DNA of 20,980 nt from a virus, in IMG/VR virus record IMGVR_UViG_3300050821_001145, positions 1 through 20,980 of that record; one strand, written 5' to 3'. The position numbers were made by a program, and so were the translations under genes. Position 1 is the first letter of the stretch. The number at the start of each line of letters is the position of its first letter. Of the stretch, positions 5,841 through 18,953 are shown piece after piece. The notes beneath the pieces are model-generated. The model ran no database searches. It worked only from the letters and a program-made list of their open reading frames with translations, and had not been told where the DNA came from.

Positions 5841-6260
5841 ATGCGTTGGATTTTAGCCCTTCTCCTTTCGTTGTTCTGCTGGTCCGTTCAAGCGCAGAAC
5901 TTTGACGGGCTAGGTGCCTATGGGTGCATGAATGCCCAAGTTTCGACGTGTCAGTTGAAGACGGCTGGGGGTAAGCTTTACGATTTCCAGCTCTCGAACG
6001 TCAGTGGCACTGCGACATGGGCGTTTGTCATGGATACGGCGACGGTGCCGGTGAATGGGGCAATCGCAGGATGTACGACGGCACAGGCGCCTTGTCTGCT
6101 TAAAGCCTACCAGTTGAGCACGTCGGGAGCGACGATCGGCGTCATGTGGACGCCTTCCTCTGTTCTTTTCTTCGCTGGCCTTGTGATTGCCTGTTCGACA
6201 ACGGCGCCGCCAACGCTGACTCTTAGTGCGACGTGTTTCATGTCTGGAGAGACCCAATGA
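5841..6260 (+). CDS. Exported small Cys-rich phage protein (139 aa)
   Basis: The N-terminus is a textbook Sec signal peptide: one Arg, a long hydrophobic stretch (ILALLLSLFCW) and SVQA before Gln19. The mature part has six cysteines (C29, C37, C78, C85, C118, C132), an even number compatible with three disulfides outside the cytoplasm. The C-terminal half, FVMDTATVPVNGAI through LTLSATCFMSGE, resembles a small all-beta protein of unknown function found in many phage structural clusters. A strong site, aaggag (5828-5833), is 7 nt before the ATG. Its stop overlaps the next gene as ATGA. It is first in a run of four exported products lying between portal and scaffold. A head or tail decoration role, or attachment to the cell surface, is possible; function unknown. 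Confidence 0.8.
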   Translation: MRWILALLLSLFCWSVQAQNFDGLGAYGCMNAQVSTCQLKTAGGKLYDFQLSNVSGTATWAFVMDTATVPVNGAIAGCTTAQAPCLLKAYQLSTSGATIGVMWTPSSVLFFAGLVIACSTTAPPTLTLSATCFMSGETQ

Positions 6261-7429
6261 GAAGATGGCTTGGCGCTCTTGCCGGACTGCTGCTGTGCTC
6301 GGTTGCACACGCCGAGATTATCAATGTTACGCCTGCCGGTGGGAGTGGCGGCACGACCACCATCGTCCCCAACTCCACACCCTGCACCGGCTGCACCGCG
6401 AACGGCCTCCTCTATTCCGATGGGATGAAAGTCCAATCTCTCGCCACCGCCAACAATGGAGCCCTGGTCACCTCTGCGGGAGGGGTGCTGAGCATATCGA
6501 CGACGCTGCCGAGTGGGTTGACGATACCGGGGTATGCGCCGCTGGCGTCGCCGACATTTACCGGCACAGTGACGCTGCCGGATAGTTCGACATGGACCTC
6601 AACGCTGTTGACGTTAGCTGCATCTAGCGGATTTCGCCAACCAAATGGCGCCAATAGTGAATATGGTGGATGCACTTGGGCAACCAACATTTGGACTTGC
6701 GGCACGACGACGAATGCGGGAACGGCTCGGGCGGCGGCACTGCGTGTTAATGGCAGCGGCTTGTTGATAAACACCACAGGCATAATCGCTTCCTTTGATA
6801 CGACTGTTACCCAATTTAACCTGACGGCCGGAACGGGAGGAATGTCGGTTGCCACAGGGAACGGCAAACTTGCATTTGCAATGGCGGGAGGCGGAACTAA
6901 TTACATCGGATATGGGCCGACGACCAACGATGCTGCCTGTTTGGGGTATTCGTCATCATACCCTAACGGTAACATTACTTGTGTTTTAACGTGGACTGAC
7001 AATGGAACTGTGACCATCGCGCCGAACAACTCCATTACGAACATCACGGGATCGCTTACCGTCTCCGCTCTCGCCAACGCCGCCACTACTTCCGCCGTTT
7101 GCTACAATACCGGAACGGGTGTTCTGACGTACGACGGCACCGTCGGCACCTGCACCGTCTCCGGTCGCCAGTTCAAGAACATCCTCGGCGGGTTCGACAG
7201 CGTGGCCAATATCGATTCCTTGCGTCCTGCCGTCTACCGTTACAAGCCCGAGAGCGGGTTTGACGATGGCCGTGTTCATGTCGGGCTGATCGCGCAAGAT
7301 GTGGCCCGGATGGACGATAGATGCGTTGTTCGCAATACAGATGGTGAGATCATCAACTTTGAGGATCGTTGTGTCATAGCGCATTTAATAACTGAGCTAC
7401 ACGATTTACGAAGGAGCATCGCACGATGA
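6257..7429 (+). CDS. Exported tail fibre with S74 intramolecular chaperone domain (390 aa)
   Basis: Residues 1-19 form a signal peptide (MRRW, hydrophobic core, SVAHA before Glu20). The middle is a Gly/Ser/Thr/Asn-rich fibre region with a typical fibre repeat (YAPLASPTFTGTVTLP, 93-108). The C-terminus from 300 matches the peptidase S74 / intramolecular chaperone of endosialidase family: S302-G-R-Q-F-K307 at the autocleavage site, LRPAVYRYKPE (322-332), HVGLIAQDV (341-349) and a final helix. This domain trimerises the fibre and then usually cleaves itself off; the Asp normally following the Ser is Gly here. The mature chain has ten cysteines in five near pairs (43/46, 139/148, 228/242, 282/299, 356/372). 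ATG at 6257 has ggagag upstream and overlaps the preceding stop; a GTG at 6233 is less likely because it would hide the signal peptide. Confidence 0.85.
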   Translation: MRRWLGALAGLLLCSVAHAEIINVTPAGGSGGTTTIVPNSTPCTGCTANGLLYSDGMKVQSLATANNGALVTSAGGVLSISTTLPSGLTIPGYAPLASPTFTGTVTLPDSSTWTSTLLTLAASSGFRQPNGANSEYGGCTWATNIWTCGTTTNAGTARAAALRVNGSGLLINTTGIIASFDTTVTQFNLTAGTGGMSVATGNGKLAFAMAGGGTNYIGYGPTTNDAACLGYSSSYPNGNITCVLTWTDNGTVTIAPNNSITNITGSLTVSALANAATTSAVCYNTGTGVLTYDGTVGTCTVSGRQFKNILGGFDSVANIDSLRPAVYRYKPESGFDDGRVHVGLIAQDVARMDDRCVVRNTDGEIINFEDRCVIAHLITELHDLRRSIAR

Positions 7430-9072
7430 TGCGTCTTGCGCTCCTACTGCTGGTGTTGACGTTTTCCTTTGGCGCAAAAGCGCAAGGCGTTGATTGCACC
7501 GGCACGGTGGATAGCACCGCCGTGTTGCAGGCCGCCGTCAACGCGATGCCAGACACCGGCACGATATACTTTCCCATCGGGTGCAAGGTGAAGCTCGGCA
7601 CCGGAATATCGTCGGGCCAATGCGGAATCACGATCACGTCCCGCGTTGGCGTGCAGTTCAGGTCGGACGTGTTGATCGGCAACTTCGGTGGCGGCCTCAC
7701 CCCGACATTCTACTGGTACGGTAATGGCGGGACGGTCTTCTGCGTAAATTCTACGGATCATCCCCGCTTCATTGGCCTTGGGTTCCAAGTAGCCGGTGGC
7801 GGGAACATGGATTCCTGCATCACCTTCGATGGAAACCCATCTGGCCACATCGGCACCAACGGAATGGTTGATTACGTCGTTTGCAACAATGGATCGAACG
7901 TTAATCCAAATTTCGTCGGCATCTCGATCTCCCCGACTGCTACCAGCAACCACGAAAACTACGAGATCAGTCATCTATATCTCGGTTGTTCCGGTCCGGA
8001 GGCTGTAGTTCGTGCTCGTGACGGCGTGACCATCTCCGGTTCCCCTAACATAAGTTCAGTCGGGGCCGCATTTGTGTCCGGTGACGTGGGCCAGCCGATT
8101 AACGTGTCTTATCCCGGCGGCAACGTGCAGACGACGGTAGCGAGCGTGATCGATGCACAACACGCGGTCCTCGCAAGCCCAATCCCGGCGTCTGTGACCC
8201 AAGCCACGATCATTACAGGTCAGTCCTACGGCATTGGACTCCGCAACGGTGCCAATCAGAACGCGATCCAGCAGACCTTTCGCCGGATCACCTATAACCG
8301 CTGCCGCATCGGCATTGATCTCGTCGGGGGGAATGCCGAGATCGATCACGTCAACGGTGGCCAGAGCGACATTGGGATTCAGATTGGCGGCTTTGTCGCG
8401 GAGCAAGTCTCGATCAATTGGTACGAGAGCGAGAACGACCTTCGCGGCATCGACAGTGCTGGTCCGCTGCTCATGGTCACGAACTCGCGGCTGTCGAACG
8501 GCAATCAGTATGGTGACGGCTTCTTCAGCTTTGGAGGCCGTGTCAATGTCCAGAACTCGTTCTCGAATTTTCATGCTCCGGCCGGATCGGTGCTGGTGGG
8601 CGCGAAGTCGGGAACCGCGACCCTTACTGGCATATCGAATGCGTGGCGTCAGCCGACGTGGGCACAGCTCGGTTATGGGCTATTCCTGAGCCCGTCAGCG
8701 ACGTGGATTAACGATGACGTGGCTGGCGCGGGGGACGCGCCCTCAGTCCATCAATTCGGATGTCAGAACGATGGTGTGTGTTTGGGCTCGATCGCGTATG
8801 GCCGCAACGCGGTAGCTGTACAGGGGCGGGCCATCAATCTGTTCGCCGCCGCAGCGGGCCAAACTTTGGTAGGTGTGCGCGGCGTGGTTGACGCGAATCC
8901 CGGCGGCTATCCGTTTCCCGGCAATGGTGGGGCGTCCTGGAATATGGTCGGCGTACAAGGGATGATCCAGAATGACTGGCTCTATAGGGGGTATGCTGCG
9001 GCGATCGAAGGAGGTTGGTATCCGATCTCCCCGATTCCGGTGCCGCAAGTGAATTGGAGAACGTTTCCTTAA
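7426..9072 (+). CDS. Exported beta-helix tailspike, pectate-lyase-like (548 aa)
   Basis: After a signal peptide (hydrophobic core LALLLLVLTF, AKA before Gln20), residues 28-55 (DSTAVLQAAVNAMPDTGTIYFP, then G) match the opening of pectate-lyase-3 type right-handed beta-helices, the fold of phage tailspikes that bind or cut surface polysaccharide. Short Gly/Asn/Ile-rich coils follow (such as GIGLRN, YNRCRIGIDL, SDIGIQI). Residues about 198-265 look like an inserted small beta-domain (FVSGDVGQPINV, TTVASVID) seen in other tailspikes. Ten cysteines remain after the signal. Catalytic acids cannot be assigned by eye, so lyase, hydrolase or pure binding are all open. The start overlaps the preceding stop (ATGA) and has gaaggag 9 nt upstream; a second ATG directly follows. 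Confidence 0.82.
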   Translation: MMRLALLLLVLTFSFGAKAQGVDCTGTVDSTAVLQAAVNAMPDTGTIYFPIGCKVKLGTGISSGQCGITITSRVGVQFRSDVLIGNFGGGLTPTFYWYGNGGTVFCVNSTDHPRFIGLGFQVAGGGNMDSCITFDGNPSGHIGTNGMVDYVVCNNGSNVNPNFVGISISPTATSNHENYEISHLYLGCSGPEAVVRARDGVTISGSPNISSVGAAFVSGDVGQPINVSYPGGNVQTTVASVIDAQHAVLASPIPASVTQATIITGQSYGIGLRNGANQNAIQQTFRRITYNRCRIGIDLVGGNAEIDHVNGGQSDIGIQIGGFVAEQVSINWYESENDLRGIDSAGPLLMVTNSRLSNGNQYGDGFFSFGGRVNVQNSFSNFHAPAGSVLVGAKSGTATLTGISNAWRQPTWAQLGYGLFLSPSATWINDDVAGAGDAPSVHQFGCQNDGVCLGSIAYGRNAVAVQGRAINLFAAAAGQTLVGVRGVVDANPGGYPFPGNGGASWNMVGVQGMIQNDWLYRGYAAAIEGGWYPISPIPVPQVNWRTFP

Positions 9073-9335
9073 TGTCACGATCATGGTCTCTCGGCCTCCT
9101 CGCCGCCACATTCCTGACCTCTGCGGCTTTTGGGCAGCAAGTCCCACCGCTGGAGCTGCAATACGCAATCCAAGCCTGTCGGAACATGCTCCATGGGGAG
9201 GTCGAGAACTCCCTTGGTAGCGCCGGTTACGCTAATCAATGGCAGGCTAAGGCAAACGAACTGACAGCCAAGGTTGCCGAGCTGGAGGCTAAGTTGAAAG
9301 AGGCCGATGCGGCAGCAAAAACGGAGAAGCCTTGA
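9072..9335 (+). CDS. Short exported coiled-coil protein (87 aa)
   Basis: The start overlaps the spike stop as TAATG. Residues 1-21 look like a signal peptide (SWSLGLLAATFLTSAAFG before Gln22); no lipobox cysteine follows, so it is not an obvious lipoprotein. The mature chain is about 66 residues: QYAIQACRNMLHGEV, then a predicted coiled coil from about 52 to 80 (QAKANELTAKVAELEAKL) with a charged end. The single cysteine is in the first helix. Its size and build recall periplasmic coiled-coil partners such as outer spanins, but no endolysin, holin or inner spanin is adjacent, so that is only a possibility. It may instead be an oligomerising accessory of the spike module. A longer frame from 9015 would be read through the spike gene and is rejected. 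Confidence 0.7.
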   Translation: MSRSWSLGLLAATFLTSAAFGQQVPPLELQYAIQACRNMLHGEVENSLGSAGYANQWQAKANELTAKVAELEAKLKEADAAAKTEKP

Positions 9336-9360
9336 CTTTTTTCCTGTTTTGTTCCGTAAT
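9332..9360 (+). promoter_or_regulatory. Candidate sigma-70-like promoter before scaffold/capsid genes
   Basis: In the 90-bp gap between the exported module and the scaffold gene, ttgact (9332-9337), a 17-bp spacer and cgtaat (9355-9360) match five and four of six consensus positions. The gap also has a T-rich stretch and a small gcggg/cccgc inverted repeat (9375-9389) without a T tail. A promoter here would allow high capsid expression separate from the upstream genes. The -10 lacks the important second A, so this is weak. Confidence 0.3.
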
Positions 9361-9425
9361 GCCCACTTCGCATGGCGGGCGTAACCCGCTCCCGAGTTGT
9401 GCTCGTTATCGCACTGGAGAGTGAA

Positions 9426-10199
9426 ATGGCTGACGACGACACCCCGCAAGACGACGAACTTGATTTGACGGATGACGAGCTTGACACCGATCCTGCCGGT
9501 CAACCTGATGCAGAAGATGACGACGCGGCTGGCGGGGCCGACGAAAACGCTGACGACGACGAGGAGCCAGAGCAGGAAGACGCTTCAGGTTCCCAGGAGC
9601 CAATTGCGGCGCGCCAGCCTGCTTCCCGTGCCGGGCGTGCCGTTTCTGCTTTGCGCGCCGATCGGCGCCGGCAGGCCGAAGAACTCGCCGCTGTGCGCCG
9701 GGAGCTGGCAGAGCTGCGGCAGACCCGCCAGCAGGCTCCTGTGGTGCAGGAAGACCCTCGTGTGGAAGCGGAGCGTTTGGCGCTCATGTCTCCCGAGGAG
9801 CGCATGGAGTACCGGCTCGACCGGTCTCTGCGAGCGCACCAACAGCAGACTTCTGCGATGGTTTTCAACATGCAGACCCAGCAGGACAAAGCTGCGTGGG
9901 ATGCCCGTGCGGCCGGCGACAAGCTGCGATCGAAGCTTGCTGCCGATGTGGAACGCGAGTACCAAGCTTGCATCGCACGCGGGCAGTATCTCCCCCGAGA
10001 GAATATCTACATTTACCTCGTGGGGCAGCGGTTCATTGCCAACCGAGGAAAGGGAGATGGCAAGGCAGCTCGGCGAGTTGAGCGTGAGCGCGTGCGTCCT
10101 GCCAGCGGTCGCGGCGACGTGCAGCCGGAACGGCGCGCGGCTCGCGGTGCCGGTACGACTTCCGACTTTGAGCGCCGATACGGCGACATTCAAATCTGA
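9426..10199 (+). CDS. Capsid scaffolding protein (257 aa)
   Basis: The gene lies immediately before the major capsid gene and has the build of a phage scaffold: a very acidic disordered start (residues 1-56, runs of Asp and Glu), a long helical and coiled-coil centre (AEELAAVRRELAELRQTRQ, about 84-102; SPEERMEYRLDRSLR, 121-135; and on to about 180), and a basic C-terminal tail (about 205-245) suited to binding the capsid shell. Scaffolds guide prohead assembly and leave before or during packaging. No protease motif is visible. ATG 9426 has ggaga (9416-9420) 5 nt upstream; an in-frame ATG at 9372 has no such site. There is no sequence-level family signature I can name, so the call rests on position and composition. 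Confidence 0.8.
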   Translation: MADDDTPQDDELDLTDDELDTDPAGQPDAEDDDAAGGADENADDDEEPEQEDASGSQEPIAARQPASRAGRAVSALRADRRRQAEELAAVRRELAELRQTRQQAPVVQEDPRVEAERLALMSPEERMEYRLDRSLRAHQQQTSAMVFNMQTQQDKAAWDARAAGDKLRSKLAADVEREYQACIARGQYLPRENIYIYLVGQRFIANRGKGDGKAARRVERERVRPASGRGDVQPERRAARGAGTTSDFERRYGDIQI

Positions 10200-10220
10200 G
10201 GCGGTGGCAACTCACCGCTT
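10199..10220 (+). other. Stem-loop between scaffold and capsid genes
   Basis: The arms gcggtg (10201-10206) and caccgc (10213-10218) form a 6-bp stem around gcaact, extendable by a G-T and an A-T pair, and are followed by tttaactt. It lies between the scaffold stop and the capsid ribosome-binding site (ggagag, 10228-10233). The T tail is too short for an efficient terminator. An mRNA-stabilising or processing hairpin that sets scaffold-to-capsid ratio is plausible. Confidence 0.4.
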
Positions 10221-10238
10221 TAACTTCGGAGAGCGGTG

Positions 10239-11579
10239 ATGGCAGTCAATGTTGCTTCTCAATTTTCTGGCGACATAAGCCAGTACATTGCAGACAAGAC
10301 GCTTCCTCTCGTGCGCCGGCAACTGGTCGTTTACCAGTTCGGCGATCCCGCGACGCTCCCCAAAGGGCAAGGCACGACCTACACGGCGAGCCGTTATCCG
10401 CGCGTGCCGCTGCCGTTCGCTCCGCTTTCGGAAGGCGTGCCTCCGATCGGGCAGTCGATGACGCTGCAGCAAGTCAGCGCGCAAGCCCAGCAATGGGGCG
10501 ATAAGATCACCATTACCGACGTTGCGGAAATGACGATTAAGCATCCGTTGTTCAAGAAGGCAACGGAGTTGATCGGCCTTCAGACTGCCGAGACAATGGA
10601 ACGCAACACGTTCACCAATCTTCTCGCGGGCAGTCAGATTAACTACGTCAACAGTCGTGGCGCTCGTGCATCTCTTGTGGCGGGTGACGTTCTAAACCCC
10701 CACGAGATCAATCGCGCTTCGGCCATGCTGATTAATCTCGGTGCGCCTCGTTTCATGGGCGACGAGATGACCGACATGAAGCTGCAGGCGGATGCCGGCG
10801 GCGCGAAGGCGTCCAGCAATCCGCGCAAGATGCCGCATTACGTGGCGGTGGCGCACCCCTTCCCGCTCGGCGATCTCAGCGAAAATCAGACGATCGTTAC
10901 GGCCTGGAGCTATAGCGATCTCAATCGCCTTTACAATTATGAGGTCGGCGAGTGGCGCGGCATCCGGTTCTGCCAGACCAATATGTGCCCAAGTTTTACG
11001 GGAGTTGCGCAAGTCAACCCTGTTGCGGTTGGTGGCGGCACACTGGCGGCGACGAACTACTTTATCATTGTTACCGGATCGGACACGCAGAATCAGTACG
11101 AGTCTCGTATCTATCAAGTGTCCAATTCTACGGCTGTGGGGGCTAATGGTGCGCTTCAGGTGACACTGCCCGCGACGTCAGGGTTCACCTATAGCATTTA
11201 CATCGGCACAACCAACACGCCGTTCAATCTCGGACTGAGCGCTTCGGGTCCGACTTCCGGGCCTCTCATTGGGCAGGCTACTCAGCTTGCGCCGGGTGCC
11301 GTGGTGACGGTGACGGGAATCGGCCTTGCACAGACCCCGCCGGCTGCGCCGGCTACGGGTGTGACGGTCTACCCGACGTTCATCTTCGGACGTGGCGCTT
11401 ATACGCAAGTTGTCCTCGATAGCATGAAGATGACTTACCTGAAAGAGCCGGACAAATCCGATCCGCTCAATCAGTTGCGGGTTGTTGGTTGGAAGGTGTT
11501 CTACGGAACTCTGATCAGTAATCAACAGTTCTTTATGCGTATCGAATCCACGTCTGCCTTCAGCGCCACCTTCGGCTGA
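10239..11579 (+). CDS. Major capsid protein, N4-gp56-like, with Ig-like insertion (446 aa)
   Basis: The gene follows the scaffold. Segments typical of the N4-gp56 type capsid family are visible: DKTLPLVRRQLVVYQFGD near the start (about 19-36), WGDKITITDVAEMTIKHPLF (86-105), a central PHYVAVAHPFPLGDL (199-213), and the C-terminal DPLNQLRVVGWKVFYGTLI (408-426). Such proteins form the icosahedral shell through the HK97 fold. Between about 255 and 365, a Gly/Thr/Ser-rich segment with FN3/Ig-like strands (TNYFIIVTGSDTQNQYESR, FTYSIYIGTTN) is inserted just before the conserved end, likely displayed on the capsid surface. ATG 10239 has ggagag 5 nt upstream; a GTG just before it is less well spaced. 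The stop is a tandem TGA-TAG. Capsid identity is confident; the exact family name is by recognition only. Confidence 0.88.
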   Translation: MAVNVASQFSGDISQYIADKTLPLVRRQLVVYQFGDPATLPKGQGTTYTASRYPRVPLPFAPLSEGVPPIGQSMTLQQVSAQAQQWGDKITITDVAEMTIKHPLFKKATELIGLQTAETMERNTFTNLLAGSQINYVNSRGARASLVAGDVLNPHEINRASAMLINLGAPRFMGDEMTDMKLQADAGGAKASSNPRKMPHYVAVAHPFPLGDLSENQTIVTAWSYSDLNRLYNYEVGEWRGIRFCQTNMCPSFTGVAQVNPVAVGGGTLAATNYFIIVTGSDTQNQYESRIYQVSNSTAVGANGALQVTLPATSGFTYSIYIGTTNTPFNLGLSASGPTSGPLIGQATQLAPGAVVTVTGIGLAQTPPAAPATGVTVYPTFIFGRGAYTQVVLDSMKMTYLKEPDKSDPLNQLRVVGWKVFYGTLISNQQFFMRIESTSAFSATFG

Positions 11580-11605
11580 TAGCAAACTTAACGGAGGTAG
11601 CAAAC

Positions 11606-11908
11606 ATGTCGTATCGCGTGACCTATCAGGTGAACGTCGATTGGGTTGGAGATGGCCAAGGCCCCATGAGCGGCAACACAGCCGCTTCCGTGGGGATGGC
11701 CGCGGCCGGCGGCGCGCAACGCAAGACGGTTTTCAATGGCACGCCATCGGGGCAGATGTCGAAGACGTTTCTGGCGGCTGATGTTGCGACTTTGCTTACG
11801 GGATCGTCTTCAGTGCCGACAGGTGGGCTGGCGCTAGACATTTACAACCAGCTCATTGCTGCGGCCGTTCTTGCGCAAATCCAGAACTTCTCTACGGGGA
11901 CTGGCTGA
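11606..11908 (+). CDS. Small structural protein downstream of capsid (100 aa)
   Basis: I do not recognise the family with confidence. It starts with a beta-like VTYQVNVDWVGDG, has a flexible Gly/Ala part (residues 25-40), and ends with a helix (LDIYNQLIAAAVLAQIQNF). It has the best ribosome-binding site in the block, ggaggt (11593-11598) 7 nt before the ATG, suggesting a product needed in quantity. With the capsid gene upstream and the next small gene overlapping its stop (TGATG, 11906-11910), a capsid cement or head-completion role is plausible. No signal peptide or membrane segment is seen. Confidence 0.72.
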   Translation: MSYRVTYQVNVDWVGDGQGPMSGNTAASVGMAAAGGAQRKTVFNGTPSGQMSKTFLAADVATLLTGSSSVPTGGLALDIYNQLIAAAVLAQIQNFSTGTG

Positions 11909-12198
11909 TGGCAACCGGCACGCTCGGGACGACGGCGAACAACTCGCTTACGTCCCTTATCTTTGGTGGTGCGATGAACACCACCGACCTTGCGACGATC
12001 GCGCAAGGGGTCAAGAACGATCTTGTCAACGGCAATCCGATTTGGCCTGGGGCGTACGCACAAAACGGGCTCCTGTACGTCCCTAGCCGGGGAGTGCTTC
12101 GCGTGCTCCCCGGTGACTATGTAGGGATTGATTCGCAGGGTTGGCCGGTTCTCGTATCGGCCAACTCGATTGCCAACGCAGCGTGGACGCATACATGA
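11908..12198 (+). CDS. Small head-region protein, possible decoration protein (96 aa)
   Basis: The C-terminal half, LYVPSRGVLRVLPGDYVGIDSQGWPVLVSA (residues 55-84), is a pattern I associate with small proteins just downstream of capsid genes in alphaproteobacterial podovirus-like phages; their role is uncharacterised. The first 45 residues look helical and flexible. The start overlaps the preceding stop as TGATG, and its own stop overlaps a further ATG as ATGA at 12195. Context argues for a head decoration or assembly role; that is inference. Confidence 0.72.
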   Translation: MATGTLGTTANNSLTSLIFGGAMNTTDLATIAQGVKNDLVNGNPIWPGAYAQNGLLYVPSRGVLRVLPGDYVGIDSQGWPVLVSANSIANAAWTHT

Positions 12199-12371
12199 TC
12201 TTGCTTAATCCGAACACTGTTAAATATTGTCTGCACTGTCGTTGTCAAACATGGCATTACGACAGTGTGTGCGAATGGAGTGATCTACATAGGACGGCTA
12301 CACATGAGCAAAAAAGAAACCCCGATCGACCGCAAGAACCTCCCGCTCAACCTGCAAATTCTCACCGATGA
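12195..12371 (+). CDS. Small zinc-ribbon-like protein (58 aa)
   Basis: An ATG overlaps the preceding stop as ATGA (12195-12198) and opens a 58-codon frame. The product contains YCLHCRCQTWHYDSVCEWSD (residues 11-30), with C-x2-C-x-C, a His and a further Cys before Trp-Ser-Asp. This C-x2-C...T-x-H...C-x-W-x-D arrangement resembles tiny zinc-binding proteins often present in phage structural clusters. The C-terminal part is basic and proline-rich and overlaps the following gene by 68 nt, more than other junctions here, so the end may be translated poorly or the gene may be decaying. Without this gene the 105-bp gap before 12304 would be the longest in this block. The cysteine motif and start overlap are the evidence; function unknown. 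Confidence 0.5.
   Translation: MILLNPNTVKYCLHCRCQTWHYDSVCEWSDLHRTATHEQKRNPDRPQEPPAQPANSHR
12234..12267. repeat. Perfect 9-bp inverted repeat (hairpin)
   Basis: The arms cactgtcgt (12234-12242) and acgacagtg (12259-12267) pair perfectly around a 16-nt loop, with two further G-T pairs possible at the base. It lies within the small zinc-ribbon-like frame and about 37 nt before the next start codon. No T run follows, so it is not a terminator. It could be an RNA structure controlling the following gene or a protein-binding site. Confidence 0.45.
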
Positions 12372-12753
12372 GGAGCTGCAGGAGCTTCGGGCGGAAGCGC
12401 GCAAGACAGTTGTTGCTGAGCTGTCGAAGCAGGCGCGTGACGAGTATTTTGCCAAGGCACTGGCGGAAGCGCGGCAGGCGAGCATTGCCGACGAGGAGTT
12501 GATTCACGTCCAGATCGACGTGGCGCCGTGGTGCCCCGGAGCGACGATCGACGGTGTTCAGTACTTTCACGGGTACACCTATCCCGTGAAAAAGTCCGTG
12601 GCGTGTGTTCTGTTCGAGCAGATGTGGCGGACGTGGGAGCATCAAGACGAGCTGGACGGCCGTGGGCGCAGTGAGGCGTACCGCCGGCCGCGCAATCTTT
12701 CGATCGGGCCGCGACACCTGGGGGTGTCGAATAACGCCCTGCTAGGAGTGTAA
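12304..12753 (+). CDS. Hypothetical structural-cluster protein (149 aa)
   Basis: The N-terminal 60 residues are helical and charged (DEELQELRAEARKTVVAEL, then FAKALAEARQASI). The rest is beta-rich and well ordered: VQIDVAPWCPGATIDGVQYFHGYTYPV (about 69-95), VLFEQMWRTWEHQDELDGR (102-120), and a basic end (SEAYRRPRNLSIGPRH). I do not know a characterised relative. The start at 12304 has agga (12291-12294) 9 nt upstream; an in-frame upstream start at 12265 lies in the hairpin and lacks a site. Neighbouring head and tail genes suggest a structural or assembly role, unproven. Confidence 0.72.
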   Translation: MSKKETPIDRKNLPLNLQILTDEELQELRAEARKTVVAELSKQARDEYFAKALAEARQASIADEELIHVQIDVAPWCPGATIDGVQYFHGYTYPVKKSVACVLFEQMWRTWEHQDELDGRGRSEAYRRPRNLSIGPRHLGVSNNALLGV

Positions 12754-12766
12754 CAAGGAGCGCTTA

Positions 12767-13231
12767 ATGGAAACCCCGCACGTCAAGACGCCGGATGAAC
12801 TGGCGGTTGCGATCACTGTGTCAACTCAGATACCTCCGAATCGAAATATCGTTTTGCAGACGTACCTTGGGCAAGAGCAACCGGAACGGGCCTTCAATCA
12901 TCTCATGGACAAGCTTGGCCGTGTGGTTGATCGGCAGGATGCTTTCTATAAGAAGAAAGATTTGGTGCTCGGTCTCGCGCACGAGAAGAAGCTCTTGGCG
13001 CAGTTGACCGAGGACTATAATCGGATCGAGGGGCGATCGCAGGTTGCGTGGGAGGCCAAGGGAAAGAAGGGCCCGCATAAGTTGAGCCCACAGGAGGAAC
13101 AGCAGAAGACGACGGCGCAGATCAACATCAAGCGCTACCAAGAGAGCATCGCCAAGATCGAGAACGAGATCGCGGAGTACGAGGAACTTTTGAATGCCCC
13201 TGACCGCGCAGCAAATATGCAGTCTGGCTAG
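12767..13231 (+). CDS. Hypothetical coiled-coil protein (154 aa)
   Basis: The product is mostly helical. Residues 36-60 (EQPERAFNHLMDKLGRVVDRQD) are followed by a coiled-coil candidate (LGLAHEKKLLAQLTEDYNRIE, about 67-88), a Lys-rich loop (KGKKGPHKLSPQEEQQK), and a second coiled coil to about 145 (INIKRYQESIAKIENEIAEYEELL). Two helical arms around a basic loop give a hairpin-like outline. It has a strong aaggag site (12755-12760) 6 nt upstream. Its last 38 nt overlap the adaptor gene in another frame. An assembly chaperone or head-tail joining role is possible from position, but no family is recognised. Confidence 0.75.
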   Translation: METPHVKTPDELAVAITVSTQIPPNRNIVLQTYLGQEQPERAFNHLMDKLGRVVDRQDAFYKKKDLVLGLAHEKKLLAQLTEDYNRIEGRSQVAWEAKGKKGPHKLSPQEEQQKTTAQINIKRYQESIAKIENEIAEYEELLNAPDRAANMQSG

Positions 13232-13907
13232 GCAGGAGGCGAAGTGCCCCGGTTTTGCTTCGCAGTCCGGTCAGTATCTCAATTCGTGCCTGCAGGACTT
13301 GTGCATGAATTGGGATTTGGACGCTGCCATGGGCACGCAGTCCTATACGACTAACACGGTCAATAATCTTCCGACCGACTATCTTCGCACACGTGTCGTT
13401 GATGGCAAGGATGACATATTCTATACTATCAACGGCGTTCCCTATCCAATGATCCAAGTCACGCTGGCGGAATACGATTGGCTCGTGCAGACGCCGGGGT
13501 TTCAGAGTTACCCGCAGTTCTATGCAACGAACTTGTCGGTTTCACCGGCCCAAATTTTGCTGTGGCCTCCTCCTTCGGGGCAGTACCCGGTAACGCATCG
13601 TTACCAGCGGCAGATGCCTGATATTGCGACGCCTGAGACTTCCACGTCAGTTCCGTGGTTTCTCAACACGCAGATTTTGATTCGGTGGACGGCTGGGCTT
13701 CTCATGGGCCTGACAGGGGACCAGCGCCAAGCGGAGTACATGGGAGACGACGAGGAGAGATACCCGCTCGGGGCGCGTTCTCTTTTGAAAGCCTACCTGC
13801 GCAACGTTAGCGATCGTGAGGGGGCTGTAAAGACGGTCGGTTTGGATCGTCGGCGCTTTGGCCGAAGTTTTGACCGGCTCAAGAATACCAAATCCATCGG
13901 GTGGTGA
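13194..13907 (+). CDS. Head-tail adaptor / connector protein (237 aa)
   Basis: The N-terminus PLTAQQICSLARQEAKCPGF (residues 2-21) then LNSCLQDLCMNWDLDAA matches the helical start of podovirus head-tail adaptors of the P22 gp4 / T7 gp11 kind, which sit under the portal and join the tail. The centre (YLRTRVV, YPMIQVTLAEYDWL, ILLWPPPSGQYPVTHRYQR) and PWFLNTQILIRWTAGLLMG (about 155-173) fit the same group. The C-terminus is basic (LDRRRFGRSFDRLK). The gene begins within the end of the previous gene (38-nt overlap), with gagg (13181-13184) upstream. The nozzle-like protein encoded two genes later is its expected partner. Structural class is fairly clear; exact homology is inferred. Confidence 0.72.
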   Translation: MPLTAQQICSLARQEAKCPGFASQSGQYLNSCLQDLCMNWDLDAAMGTQSYTTNTVNNLPTDYLRTRVVDGKDDIFYTINGVPYPMIQVTLAEYDWLVQTPGFQSYPQFYATNLSVSPAQILLWPPPSGQYPVTHRYQRQMPDIATPETSTSVPWFLNTQILIRWTAGLLMGLTGDQRQAEYMGDDEERYPLGARSLLKAYLRNVSDREGAVKTVGLDRRRFGRSFDRLKNTKSIGW

Positions 13908-13908
13908 T

Positions 13909-14337
13909 ATGACTGCTAGAACTGTTGCCGCTCTTACATCCGAAATAACTTCCGACTTCGCTGACAACACGACGGGGTTGATAACTCCTGCCCTGCTGCG
14001 GACGGTCACGCAGGATGTTGTCGATTCGACTTCGCAAGGGTTTGCCACTCCTCCCAATACACAGACCGGGGCAACTTACGCGGTCGTCGCCTCGGACTTC
14101 TCGATCATAGCCAATCGGGCTGGTACGGTCACGTTGACCTTGCCCGATCCCACTACTTGCGTTGGACGCATGTTGTGGATCAAGACGATTCAGGCGCAGA
14201 CCGTCGTAAGCAACGCTTCCAATGTTATCCCTTTGAATGACGGCGCGGCGGGCACGGCGATCCTTGCCGCGACTGCAGGGAAGTGGGCCTTCATGCAGAG
14301 CGATGGCGTAAACTGGAACATCCTGGCAGGGAATTGA
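13909..14337 (+). CDS. Virion-associated beta-rich protein (142 aa)
   Basis: After a helical start (ARTVAALTSEITSDF), residues about 53-142 form a compact beta-domain: GATYAVVASDFSIIANRAGTV..., then TLPDPTTCVGRMLWIKTI, VVSNASNVIPL and AATAGKWAFMQSDGVNWNI. This module is common in phage fibre and baseplate-like proteins, where it is often attached to or next to tail fibres. There is no signal peptide, unlike the fibre genes elsewhere in the window. ATG 13909 has gggtggtg just upstream and follows the adaptor stop by 1 bp; its stop overlaps the nozzle gene as TGATG. A role as a short tail appendage is likely but not shown. Confidence 0.72.
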   Translation: MTARTVAALTSEITSDFADNTTGLITPALLRTVTQDVVDSTSQGFATPPNTQTGATYAVVASDFSIIANRAGTVTLTLPDPTTCVGRMLWIKTIQAQTVVSNASNVIPLNDGAAGTAILAATAGKWAFMQSDGVNWNILAGN

Positions 14338-16025
14338 TGTCCACCCTTCCCGGCACGCCTCTCGTTTGGAGCCCACAGGGTGCATCGGACACGCTCGACT
14401 CCTCGACTTCGTTTTCAGGGGCGATGCAGGCGCTTACCAATCTCATTCCCGATCCCACCACGCGAAATCTGTGGCAGTGCCGTCCCGCTTCGATTTTGCT
14501 CACAGACTTGGCAGCGCATGGGTTTGCCGGGGCTTCTTTCATATCCTGCATGCTCAATGTGGGTACGCGCATCTATGGGATGGTGTCCACAACACGCAAC
14601 GCAGGCCGTGACGAACCTTTCTGCTACGACGTGCCTACCAACACCTTCATCTCCATAGCAGGGGTCACGGCGGCGAACTCCCCGATAAGTCCTAACACGT
14701 TCGGGGCCTGGAATCCGCCGCAGATGGTCCTCGTGGGGTCCAATATCATCGTGGCGCATCCCGGTTTTAGCGGTGCCGCCAACGCCTTTTTCGGTGTCAT
14801 TAACATTCTCAATTCTTTTGCCTTGACGTGGACTGCGACCAACACGGCACCCACCGCGCTCGTGTTTCCTCCTCAGTGGGTGAGCAACTTCAATGGTCGG
14901 TGCTGGTTTCTGGTCAACCCTCCTAACTCTCAGCCTGCGGCCTACTTTTCGGACGTGCTTCTTCCGACACAGATAACAAACGCAAGTCAGATATTGACCT
15001 TTGACGATAACACGCCTCTAACGTGCTCTGCCGGACTGGCGCTCAACAACCAGCTTGGCGGCATCATACAGGCGTTGATTGTGTTCAAGGGTGTGGACAA
15101 CCTGTACCAGATCACAGGAGATTTTGCGTTCGGTACGCTATCCAAAAACTCTATGAACGTGGCGACGGGAACCTTTGCCCCCAACTCGATCGTCTCGAGT
15201 GAGAAGGGCCTCATGTTCATGGCGCCGGATGGGGTGCGGACGATTGATTTTAACGGCAACGTCAGCGATCCCATTGGTAAGGACGGAGATGGCATTACGG
15301 TTCCGTTCTTTTTTGCTCTCGTACCTTCTCGTGCGTGTGCGGCTTTCAATGGTGGCGTGTACCGGGTGCAAGTGCAGAACGGGAGCTTGATCCCTGTAGG
15401 ATCGGGATTCTCGACGGGATTTTCTTCCGGCTTCGGTGCTCCCACGTTCAGCAACCAACAGGAATGGTGGTACGACACGGTGCGAGGGTGTTGGTCGGGA
15501 CCGCACACGACGGGTTTGTCTCTTACCATCCCCTACCAGAACACTTTCTTTGCAACGCTACAGAACGGCGGGGCGAAGATTTTCAGAAGTGACCAAGTGC
15601 AGTCGAATACGAGCACGTTTGTCGAGAACGGCGCGCAGCTCGTTTATAGCTATCAGACGGCCATGCTTCCCGACACGGACCAGATGTCGGAAGTGGCGAT
15701 TATACAGACGACATTGCACATGGCACTTGTGGCAGGGCAGTCTGTCAGTTGCATGGCGCTCAATCAGGACAGCGCGCTTCTCGATCAGGTTACGATTTCC
15801 AGCTCGGGAACGGCAACGCTGTGGAACTTTTTCAACTGGAACAGCGCGGTGTGGAATGGTACGTTGAATGGCAACGCTTTGTTTCCTCGCCGCCTGGACT
15901 GGAACGCGCCTCTTGTGTTTCGTCGCATGCGTCTTTCCGCGAGCGGAATGTCGGCGGCGGGGTTGAAGATCGGACGGCTGCACATGCGCTATCAGGTGCT
16001 CAACTATCTGCAACAGGACTCGTGA
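14337..16025 (+). CDS. Tail nozzle / beta-propeller-like tail protein (562 aa)
   Basis: The size, position after the adaptor, and the start ALTNLIPDPTTRNLWQCRPA (residues 32-51) match tail nozzle proteins of short-tailed phages (P22 gp10 or T7 gp12 type), which plug or extend the tail tube. Long beta-rich stretches follow with propeller-like units: QMVLVGSNIIVAHPGF, FNGRCWFLVNPPNSQPAAYFSD, IVFKGVDNLYQITGDF, GLMFMAPDGVRTIDFNG and WWYDTVRGCWSGPH. The C-terminal part (FRRMRLSASG, IGRLHMRYQVL) is a beta-sandwich-like end. Eight cysteines are present although no signal peptide is, so cysteine richness in this genome is not limited to exported proteins. The start overlaps the previous stop (TGATG) and the stop overlaps the next gene (TGATG, 16023-16027). 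Confidence 0.78.
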   Translation: MSTLPGTPLVWSPQGASDTLDSSTSFSGAMQALTNLIPDPTTRNLWQCRPASILLTDLAAHGFAGASFISCMLNVGTRIYGMVSTTRNAGRDEPFCYDVPTNTFISIAGVTAANSPISPNTFGAWNPPQMVLVGSNIIVAHPGFSGAANAFFGVINILNSFALTWTATNTAPTALVFPPQWVSNFNGRCWFLVNPPNSQPAAYFSDVLLPTQITNASQILTFDDNTPLTCSAGLALNNQLGGIIQALIVFKGVDNLYQITGDFAFGTLSKNSMNVATGTFAPNSIVSSEKGLMFMAPDGVRTIDFNGNVSDPIGKDGDGITVPFFFALVPSRACAAFNGGVYRVQVQNGSLIPVGSGFSTGFSSGFGAPTFSNQQEWWYDTVRGCWSGPHTTGLSLTIPYQNTFFATLQNGGAKIFRSDQVQSNTSTFVENGAQLVYSYQTAMLPDTDQMSEVAIIQTTLHMALVAGQSVSCMALNQDSALLDQVTISSSGTATLWNFFNWNSAVWNGTLNGNALFPRRLDWNAPLVFRRMRLSASGMSAAGLKIGRLHMRYQVLNYLQQDS

Positions 16026-17680
16026 TGAAAAAGTTTCTGCTTGGGTTGCTTCTGTCCTTGTGGACTTCGGTTGCTTCGGCCGGTGTGTCCTGCACTATGC
16101 CTTTTACGTTCGTGCCGGGAACGCTGGCGGACGCAAATCAGGTCAATGCCAACTTCGCAGCCGCGGTTGCTTGCTTCCTCAATGCAGCCGGCGCAGGGAA
16201 TAACAACGACATTACGGCCCTTCTCGCACTGACGACGCCGCTTACCACGGCGCAAGGCGGTTCATCTATCTACATCGGGGGTACTTCCACGGGATCGGCT
16301 AACGCCCAGGTGGTCGCATCACCCTCTCCTACCGGGTTTGCGTTGACGCGCGGTCTTAGTATCCTGTTCACAGCGGGGTTCACGAACACGGGGGCGACGC
16401 AGATTAATGTCAACGGTACGGGCTTAACCAATCTGTACCGGCAGTCACCCAGTGGCCCGCAGGCGCTCACCGGGGGAGAAGTCGTTCTCAACGATTTGAC
16501 TTGGGCGATTTACGATGGAACGCAGTTCCAACTGGTCAACACGGGAGCGCAGTACGGGGGCTATGGGCCTCTCACGTCGCTGTCTTCCGTTGGCGGCACG
16601 CCCGATCTCGGTTCGGTTGCCAGCCACAACATTACTTTCACGGGCAATACCACGATCACATCGTTCGGATCGAGTGCGAGCACGACGTTTCCCCTTTATC
16701 GTTTGAACTTCTCGACGGCTCTCGTCCTCACGCACAACGGGACCAGCCTGATCCTTCCGAGCGCCACCAACATAACGACGGCTTCGGGAGACAATGCCGT
16801 CGCGTTGTACCTTGGTTCCGGCAATTGGCAGGTTGTTCACTACGATCGAGCTAACGGTACGTCGGTTGTCAGTCCGACACCGCTTTGTGGTTTTAGCGGA
16901 CTTGTGATTGCCAACGGGGCCAGCAATTCGATCATCAACTGGTCATACACTAGCTCGGTTTTGATTAACCCTACAGGCAACGTCCCTGTTTTTTCCGGCT
17001 CGAAAAACGGAACGATAAACATTACGACGGGGACGGGAGGCACGAGCACGGCCGGGGGGATGGACGGTACGGGGCCGGGCAATAACACTTTCACTTATAT
17101 GTACGCCATTTATAATGGTACGACATGGAGCGCAGTTGGCAGTGTTACTCCTCCTGCGACTGGTCCGGTCATGCCCGCGGGTTACACGTCGCTCTGCTAC
17201 ATGGGAGCGATGAAAACGAACGGATCGGGCAATCTTTACGGCACCCGTATCCTGGGGCCGGAAGCGCGCTATGTGAACGGAGGCGCAAATCTCACCGCGC
17301 TTCCTGTAATCGCCAATGGAACGATCGGAACGACTTGTGGCGGGGCAACCCCCAATTTTGCTTCCCAGACCATAGTGGGAAGCACTGGCGCGGGGATATG
17401 GGTTCCTTCTACTGCGGTGGCGGCTGATGTCATTGTGAGTTCTCAGTTCACATCGGCAGACACGGCGCTGGTTGCTGTTGCCCCCAGCGGTCCTACGGTC
17501 TTCGGGCAATTCACGACTGGCACGGCGAATACGAATCCTCCTCCGCTCTACACGCTTTCTACGTCTCCAAATCAGCTTGGGCGCATTCTGTTGGAGAGCA
17601 CGGCAATTTGGGCTTGTAGCAGTGCCGCATCGGGGGCTGTTTTTTCCTATGGGTGGAAAGACGCTGTAAATGCCAACTGA
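16025..17680 (+). CDS. Exported tail fibre-like protein (551 aa)
   Basis: A clear signal peptide opens the product (MKKFLLGLLLSLW, VASA before Gly20). Residues 25-60 (MPFTFVPGTLADANQVNANF, then AAAVACFLNAAGAG) resemble the N-terminus of many phage tail fibres. The rest is Gly/Thr/Ser/Asn-rich and beta-like with repeated short strands (FTAGFTNTGATQINVNGTGL, VVLNDLTWAIYDGTQFQLVN, HNITFTGNTTITSF). Six cysteines remain in the mature chain (C23, C50 and four in the second half). The middle and C-terminal parts are plausibly the receptor-binding region, but no enzyme motif is seen. The start overlaps the nozzle stop. The frame is open upstream to 15749, but that part is read through the nozzle gene and is rejected. 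Confidence 0.8.
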   Translation: MKKFLLGLLLSLWTSVASAGVSCTMPFTFVPGTLADANQVNANFAAAVACFLNAAGAGNNNDITALLALTTPLTTAQGGSSIYIGGTSTGSANAQVVASPSPTGFALTRGLSILFTAGFTNTGATQINVNGTGLTNLYRQSPSGPQALTGGEVVLNDLTWAIYDGTQFQLVNTGAQYGGYGPLTSLSSVGGTPDLGSVASHNITFTGNTTITSFGSSASTTFPLYRLNFSTALVLTHNGTSLILPSATNITTASGDNAVALYLGSGNWQVVHYDRANGTSVVSPTPLCGFSGLVIANGASNSIINWSYTSSVLINPTGNVPVFSGSKNGTINITTGTGGTSTAGGMDGTGPGNNTFTYMYAIYNGTTWSAVGSVTPPATGPVMPAGYTSLCYMGAMKTNGSGNLYGTRILGPEARYVNGGANLTALPVIANGTIGTTCGGATPNFASQTIVGSTGAGIWVPSTAVAADVIVSSQFTSADTALVAVAPSGPTVFGQFTTGTANTNPPPLYTLSTSPNQLGRILLESTAIWACSSAASGAVFSYGWKDAVNAN

Positions 17681-17720
17681 ATCGTGCTAGAAAGATCGAA
17701 CCAACGAAAGGGTTAAAGCC

Positions 17721-18953
17721 ATGAAGATCAGGAAGATTTTTGCCGCTCTTGCCGCCGTGGCTGCGACCACTGCAGTTGCGTGGGGCTTGTCGATCCCGCT
17801 GATTACGGGGGCACAAGACCCTAGTCAGCTCAATGCGACGCTTAACTCTCTAATTCAGAGTTTGAACACGCTCGTCACGCCGCAGACGATGGCGCCGTTC
17901 ACCAATTTCCGCAACGTCCTCGACAACGGAAATATGGCTATCTACCAGCGGGGCACCGTTGGCACGACGATCACGACTTGTGGAACGACGACGATTCCGC
18001 AGACGGCCTACGGGGCCGATCGATGGGGATGCAATGCCAACGCGGCGGCGGGCGCAGGGCGGATGAAGGTTGTCACGACCGGCCCCACGCCTCCAGCGGG
18101 ATTCACGGCGTCAGAACAGCTCTACCGGACTTCCGGTGTTTCTCCGCAGCCGACTTGTGCCATGCAGGAGATCGGCACGGTTAACAGCACGGCGCTTGCT
18201 GGGCAGTCTGTTGTTGTCAGTGTCTACGAGCAGCCGCTTGCTGGGCTCGTGGCCGATAATGGTGGGGCTTTCAACGTTTACATCTTCACCGGCACGGGGA
18301 CCGACGAAGGGTTTGGTACTTTCACGGCGACTACGGCAATCACGCCGGCTTGGACGGGTATCGCTACGACCGGCTCGTTCTCGTTTACGAACGCGGCGGC
18401 GGCTTGGGTGCGCGTCAGTGGGAGCGCAGTAATTCCGGCGACAACGACGGAAATAGCAGCGGCGATATGTTTCACGCCGACTGCTTCGGGATCGGGCGTT
18501 ACGGATGGGCTGGCCTTTACAGGATTCCAGCTTGAAGTGTCTCCGTCCGGGCAAGCGTCTCCGTATGAATTTAAGCCTCCGGGGTACGAGACGGTCGAGG
18601 CCAATCGTTACTTCTACTCGATCACGGAAGCTGCTGCGACGGTGCTGCAGAGCCCGTCTGGTAACGGTGCGTCAACGACGACATGCACGCTCAATATCCC
18701 CTTCCCTGTGACGATGCGTGCTGCGCCGACGTTTGTTGCCTGGGGAACGGCGTTGTCTGCTTCGACATGGACGATTACGCATATCGTGACGGCAACGGCT
18801 CTATCGACGCCTTATCTTGCCGTGCTCGGAGCCAACACCCCTACAGGAGGGAGCCTGACGGCCACGGTAGCGTCGGGACTGACGACGGGGCAGACGTGCG
18901 CTTTGACAGGAGCCGGCGGCGGATCGATCATTGGCTTCAGCGCGGATTACTGA
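17721..18953 (+). CDS. Exported receptor-binding / fibre protein with jelly-roll-like domain (410 aa)
   Basis: The start has a signal-peptide-like segment (MKIRKIF, then Ala-rich core, AVA before Trp21). Next comes a fibre-type helix (GAQDPSQLNATLNSLIQSLN, 30-49), parallel to the start of the gene before it. Residues about 62-290 look like a carbohydrate-binding jelly roll used in phage fibres: LDNGNMAIYQRGT, YGADRWGCNAN, a long beta-rich middle, FTGFQLEVSPSGQASPYEFKPP and EANRYFYSITE. The C-terminal 110 residues are another beta-rich domain ending at FSADY. Six cysteines lie in the mature part. The ribosome-binding site is gaaaggg (17706-17712), and the gene ends with TGA-TAG 31 bp before the terminator. 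Receptor or capsule binding is inferred. Confidence 0.8.
   Translation: MKIRKIFAALAAVAATTAVAWGLSIPLITGAQDPSQLNATLNSLIQSLNTLVTPQTMAPFTNFRNVLDNGNMAIYQRGTVGTTITTCGTTTIPQTAYGADRWGCNANAAAGAGRMKVVTTGPTPPAGFTASEQLYRTSGVSPQPTCAMQEIGTVNSTALAGQSVVVSVYEQPLAGLVADNGGAFNVYIFTGTGTDEGFGTFTATTAITPAWTGIATTGSFSFTNAAAAWVRVSGSAVIPATTTEIAAAICFTPTASGSGVTDGLAFTGFQLEVSPSGQASPYEFKPPGYETVEANRYFYSITEAAATVLQSPSGNGASTTTCTLNIPFPVTMRAAPTFVAWGTALSASTWTITHIVTATALSTPYLAVLGANTPTGGSLTATVASGLTTGQTCALTGAGGGSIIGFSADY

Follow-up and report, generated by a model that had tools for sequence, protein, structure and literature searches.

Predicted Sec signal peptides and paired cysteines on tail fibre-class proteins of a tailed-phage family

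Leader-bearing genes in a tailed-phage late module

The DNA analysed here, which we call the window, comprises positions 1 to 20,980 of IMG/VR virus record IMGVR_UViG_3300050821_001145, a metagenomic contig. Its late module is of tailed-phage type and lies on the + strand, as do all the window features given below, in the order terminase, portal, genes A-D, scaffold, capsid, adaptor, nozzle, genes E and F, acetyltransferase and ejection-type genes. The portal, adaptor and nozzle labels come from gene order and a preliminary description of this DNA. The portal (3549..5837; leader score -3.8) is leaderless, delimits the first of the adhesin slots defined below (slot 1) and has homologues in 38 of 64 sequences. 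The major capsid protein (10239..11579), also leaderless, matched the PHROG major head protein (2e-32). The leaderless tail nozzle (stabilisation) protein (14337..16025; score 3.3), whose stop overlaps the start of E, was named by gene order and gave no match in a profile search.

Gene A (5841..6260), directly after the portal, encodes 139 aa with a predicted signal peptide at 5841-5894 (MRWILALLLSLFCWSVQA/QN, that is VQA/Q, the slash marking the predicted cut). Its mature product has 121 aa and 6 Cys. No family match was found for A, and all the relatives found have a leader and 6 or 4 Cys. Gene B (6257..7429), a tail fibre of 390 aa, has a predicted signal peptide at 6257-6313 (...SVAHA/EI), 10 mature Cys and a C-terminal S74 intramolecular chaperone, matching PHROG tail fiber (1.1e-10) and Pfam Peptidase_S74 (8.3e-8). 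Gene C (7426..9072; 548 aa) is spike-like by eye only, with a predicted signal peptide at 7426-7482 (...FGAKA/QG) and 10 mature Cys; a profile search returned no fibre family and no match, and a structure model built without an alignment was unusable (pLDDT 32). Gene D (9072..9335; 87 aa) has a probable but weak signal peptide at 9072-9134 (...SAAFG/QQ), 1 Cys, a charged, possibly coiled-coil tail and no homologue among the relatives.

The remaining two genes lie beyond the nozzle. Gene E (16025..17680), a post-nozzle tail fibre of 551 aa, has a predicted signal peptide at 16025-16081 (MKKFLLGLLLSLWTSVASA/GV; ASA/G), conserved in diverged relatives, and 6 mature Cys. Its structure model (monomer only; mean pLDDT 76) is similar to tail fibres predicted for other phages and, over ~100 columns, to the Pa193 tail fibre. 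Gene F (17721..18953), a tail fibre of 410 aa, matched PHROG tail fiber (1.8e-17) and has a predicted signal peptide at 17721-17780 (...TTAVA/WG) with 6 mature Cys; the leader is present in relatives, though just below threshold in one (L053). By match and by position in the tail module, B and F (PHROG/Pfam) and E (fold) are of the tail fibre/spike class, and A, C and D are left unassigned. The preliminary description had named five fibre, spike or surface-type proteins, which stands for these three, whilst C is without a family match and A is small. With only 139 aa, A was also miscounted among five large products, but the mature cysteine counts reported for those five (6, 10, 10, 6 and 6) were confirmed.

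Leaders were scored with our own heuristic, combining a von Heijne matrix with hydrophobic core and charge. In its calibration, for which 42 annotated E. coli proteins were used, the scores of known Sec substrates spanned 15.6-23.4, with >=19.8 for those that are soluble, and cytosolic proteins were all <=14.2, whilst polytopic membrane proteins could also score highly. Genes A (25.7), B (24.1), C (23.7), E (21.2) and F (21.2) scored in the range of known E. coli Sec substrates. Of the six Sec leaders previously claimed these five hold, and D is borderline at 16.4. All other window genes scored <=10.1, in agreement with the earlier statement that capsid, scaffold, portal, adaptor and nozzle lack such signals. 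The leaders show the features of Sec/signal peptidase I substrates: n-region charge, a hydrophobic core of 8+ residues and small residues at -3 and -1. Across 115 leader-bearing proteins alanine occupied -1 in 98 and -3 in 90, a preference partly built into the scorer. A lipobox-like site was found in only 5/115, and a later TM-like segment likewise in only 5/115. Soluble export thus fits, and a lipoprotein or membrane anchor is ruled out for nearly all.

The starts of B and C overlap the preceding stop by 4 nt and those of D and E by 1 nt, and A starts 3 nt after the portal stop. The starts are therefore firm, because most are stop/start-coupled to the preceding gene; F is the exception.

Leaders and cysteines among the relatives

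Searching viral contigs with the capsid protein gave 62 loci. Near-complete relatives have genomes of 43-45 kb, several with terminal repeats of roughly 75-130 bp. In the nearest complete relative, a holin and an endolysin gene are present, and no integrase was found among the genes scanned. Three adhesin slots were defined (portal-scaffold, adaptor-nozzle and nozzle-acetyltransferase), and genes of >=100 aa were counted in 11 near-complete relatives, with start choice blind to leaders. Leaders occurred on 44/87 adhesin-slot genes against 3/333 other genes (Fisher 1.5e-31), and fibre-slot content was highly variable. Homologues from other genomes, a point raised in the preliminary description, thus carry leaders in the same genomic slots. 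Leader-bearing starts lay <= ~20 nt from the upstream stop in 35/46 cases, which together with the slot contrast rules out chance or wrong starts. The leaders on the fibre-class proteins are, judged by sequence, genuine Sec/signal peptidase I signals with predicted cleavage.

Cultured control phages (T7, P22, BPP-1, StenR_269 and RHph_I1_23) had no leader on any of 173 genes of >=100 aa, and environmental control genomes had three leader genes at most in any one. In MW202481 the fibre genes listed all fell short of the leader threshold, and the nearest false alarm was BcepIL02 gp62 (17.4). Leaders as a general property of phage fibres are ruled out, the fibres of T7, P22, BPP-1, MW202481 and BcepIL02 being leaderless.

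A few exported-type proteins of these phages have Tat-like twin-arginine leaders and not plain Sec ones (L010:2237, L041:4857, L058:20508-21296, L058:5663-5989 and, in rotated coordinates, G004 16505), with the motifs SRRKFL, SRRRFI, DRRKFIK, TTRRGFI and SRRGFV. The 108-aa product of L058:5663-5989, between terminase and portal, joins its Tat-like leader to a capsid-N-terminal-arm-like stretch (48% identity); the same gene occurs in L057. Another phage protein (L091:3840-4424, - strand) begins with a signal peptide and ends in a PEP-CTERM-like sequence (PIPEPSSLAVFGLALAGLTAARRRR).

An even number of cysteines is typical of proteins folded under oxidising conditions. Counted without the predicted leader, 105 of the 112 leader-bearing proteins with cysteine were even, as were 66/72 clusters at 50% identity (p 3.6e-14). 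Leaderless proteins were even in only 337/767 (leader-bearing versus leaderless, Fisher 3.6e-26) and core virion proteins in 121/309. Because this parity test omits the leader sequence, it supports export independently of the leader. In the gene A family one cysteine pair is absent as a unit in diverged members. Even counts, and pairs gained or lost together, are features of disulfide-bonded proteins.

The N-terminal domain of mature E (16082..16231) has two Cys, mature residue 4 (codon 16091-16093) just before the domain core and mature residue 31 (codon 16172-16174) near the end of the domain helix. Its motif, xPFxLxNGTxADAxQVMANxN (in context xLPFxLxNGTTADAxQVMANxN), is common to leaderless post-nozzle genes, and the mature N-terminus of E matches their true N-terminus. 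A leader stands in front of this domain in 23 phages, whereas in 8 the domain begins at the start codon. The Cys pair was present in 18/23 leader-bearing and 0/8 leaderless homologues, and a single Cys in none (Fisher 1.6e-4). On the nozzle tree there were three or more independent changes of leader state, each tracked by the pair, three being too few for significance. This argues that one putative virion-facing domain serves leader-bearing and leaderless proteins alike, and that export adds its oxidation. From its position and the usual role of fibre N-termini, the domain probably binds the nozzle. The same-slot leaders, the even cysteines and the linkage of leader and Cys pair in the post-nozzle fibre support the earlier suggestion of exported, disulfide-bonded fibres that would mature outside the cytoplasm.

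Cultured phages and prophages beyond the clade

Capsid alignment also revealed relatives that are prophages in Paraburkholderia isolates; a genome scan with the adaptor query and a plasmid search gave no match. In P. tropica LMG 22274 and two further genomes a leader precedes the slot-1 fibre (at 16.7 one falls just short of the threshold), and the mature Cys of the three number 4, 2 and 6; in two sister prophages the slot-1 fibre is leaderless. A hydrophobic N-terminal peptide, LLGLLFPGV, is found on three consecutive virion genes of Paraburkholderia prophages, namely pre-scaffold, scaffold and capsid (L112, L114 and L115, 8640-11360; also L141 and L143). It is not of the A-x-A type, is absent from the window clade and is perhaps an assembly tag.

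Leaders were also found on fibre-class proteins of cultured phages: BcepC6B gp19 (YP_024939.1), annotated as tail fiber (23.4; 4 Cys), Xanthomonas PBR31 orf035 (QIN95346.1; 26.0; 2 Cys), the 687-aa tailspike of Shewanella QDWS (OK094664; 26.4; 8 Cys) and the Bradyrhizobium ppBdUSDA122-1 fibres WAX24263.1 and WAX24264.1 (22.4 and 18.6; 6 and 18 Cys). WAX24264.1 has a Collar domain, a weaker cleavage site and a more anchor-like leader. The outside examples showed Collar domain, beta-helix and fibre PHROG matches. Genes like gp19 in other Burkholderiaceae genomes had a leader in 6/6 cases with even Cys, and all 14 leader-bearing fibres outside the window's own viral set had even Cys.

The QDWS spike (L148:3829-6010) is misannotated in GenBank as a short antisense gene and a truncated protein with a downstream start. 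Phage zrk29-1 (OP650936.1; Hujiaoplasma, Tenericutes) and QDWS (OK094664.1) have the same length, 47,902, and their spike N-termini show no difference across the 136 residues that were compared. One of the two host assignments is doubtful. At three unrelated loci an acyltransferase gene lies convergent to a leader-bearing fibre gene (L102:12722-13846, L148:6003-7055 and L151:2428-3309), annotated as such in L102 and L148 and called by look in L151. Such placement beside a fibre gene is frequent for conversion genes.

Assembly route and alternative readings

We propose, with a probability of roughly 60%, that the fibres are exported by Sec, become oxidised in the periplasm and attach to virions upon lysis. 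Fibres expressed from the late morphogenesis operon would leave through the host Sec translocon and lose their leader, then fold in the periplasm, where their Cys pairs would form disulfides. In the cytoplasm, meanwhile, heads would be built together with portal, adaptor and nozzle and packaged with DNA. Lysis proteins would open the envelope and mature fibres would meet fibreless particles, attaching by the N-terminal domain common to the leaderless fibres of sister phages, so that the virion would be completed at or just after lysis. The holin and endolysin of the closest complete relative represent the lysis system at which this would occur. In vitro, P22 tailspikes can be joined to particles, as can T4 fibres. 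The sequences support export and oxidation well, and from them we also infer cleavage, periplasmic location and attachment at lysis. Joining the virion is the most likely of the three options in the preliminary description, the others being release to modify or coat neighbouring cells and another use of the leader such as membrane anchoring. We consider the odds about even for a broader form of this proposal, a split-compartment assembly with cytoplasmic heads, exported and periplasm-stored fibres and a particle infectious only after mixing at lysis, spread in modular fashion, leader by leader, among proteobacterial phages. Two counterpoints to the proposed route are the leaderless versions of the same fibre in sister phages, indicating that export is not essential for fibre function, and the 5/23 leader-bearing E homologues without the Cys pair. 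No virion or periplasm proteomics was found for these phages.

The main rival, which we think unlikely, is that the proteins are exported and oxidised but released without ever joining the virion, as soluble adhesins that after lysis would mask or remove the receptors of debris and neighbouring cells, or as periplasmic anti-superinfection agents. The slot leaders and even cysteines apply to it too, and in BcepC6B (gp18/gp19) and PBR31 (orf034/orf035) a leader-bearing gene lies beside a leaderless one that could encode the virion fibre. However, in the window clade leader-bearing E sits where sister phages encode a leaderless fibre that shares its N-terminal domain, and S74 and Collar domains are features of tailspikes and fibres. 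Conversion genes lodged among the tail genes, whose exported enzymes or surface proteins would alter the host envelope during infection or lysogeny, would account for the variable slot content and for the acyltransferase-type genes adjoining leader-bearing fibres in the Bradyrhizobium, Shewanella and L151 loci. This reading is improbable, since the leader comes and goes within a family whilst slot and N-terminal domain stay, enzyme domains are limited to weak pectate-lyase folds and the nearest complete relative has no integrase among its scanned genes.

It is more doubtful still that the leader stays uncleaved and anchors the protein hydrophobically in virion or membrane, or that another protease cuts it in the cytoplasm. 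P22 gp7 does lose 20 N-terminal residues to host OpdA (record note), and five leader-bearing proteins have the later TM-like segment, but the alanine preference at -1 and -3 and an even-Cys bias unexpected for a cytoplasmic protein stand against it. An artefact, whether from misplaced starts, contaminating host DNA or N-termini hydrophobic by chance, has next to no likelihood: the starts are predicted and the contig is metagenomic, yet most leader-bearing starts sit close to an upstream stop, and leaders recur in many contigs and isolates over the low background seen outside the slots.

Release at lysis of fibres completed outside the cytoplasm, as we favour, can be set beside known systems. 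The leaderless podovirus fibres and spikes (P22 gp9, T7 gp17, MW202481) are alike in late tail-module position, fibre families and S74/Collar modules but have no signal peptide, whereas here the same kind of gene has a leader and paired Cys. The Oenococcus phage fOg44 endolysin Lys44 is Sec-exported (PMC6116005). Lys44 and SAR endolysins are likewise late proteins of tailed phages, exported by Sec and kept outside the cytoplasm until lysis, but they are muralytic enzymes whilst the cargo here is a fibre-class structural protein; profile searches of the leader-bearing proteins found no muralytic catalytic domain. Filamentous phage pIII and pVIII are also virion proteins with signal peptides, but stay membrane-anchored and assemble at the membrane, whereas here 110/115 mature proteins are without the TM segment expected of a filamentous coat and the heads are of tailed type. 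BcepC6B gp19, PBR31 orf035, the QDWS spike and the ppBdUSDA122-1 fibres are likewise fibre-class with A-x-A/A-x-G leaders and even mature Cys, but come from other phage groups with fewer such genes per genome.

The leaders of cultured phages, for example that of BcepC6B gp19, have apparently never been remarked on. In the PBR31 paper (PMC10975493) gp40 is the only protein credited with a signal peptide, and fibre leaders go unmentioned in the Bradyrhizobium and JC1 phage papers. Searches of open-access literature, with few subscription papers covered, turned up exported endolysins but no account of Sec-exported tail fibres. The earlier remark that no established system exists thus holds for that literature, but cultured examples sit unremarked in GenBank. 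Annotation misses leader-bearing fibres, as the split QDWS spike and BcepC6B gp19 with its overlooked leader illustrate.

Tailed-phage assembly is taught as an entirely cytoplasmic process. The family of the window is one of soil and freshwater phages. BcepC6B, PBR31, QDWS and Paraburkholderia tropica LMG 22274 are cultured, so the question is directly testable. If true, export and disulfide locking of the fibres would bring a periplasmic stage into tailed-phage assembly, phage infectivity would hang on the host Sec and Dsb systems, and the fibres would gain a stability unattainable in the reducing cytoplasm.
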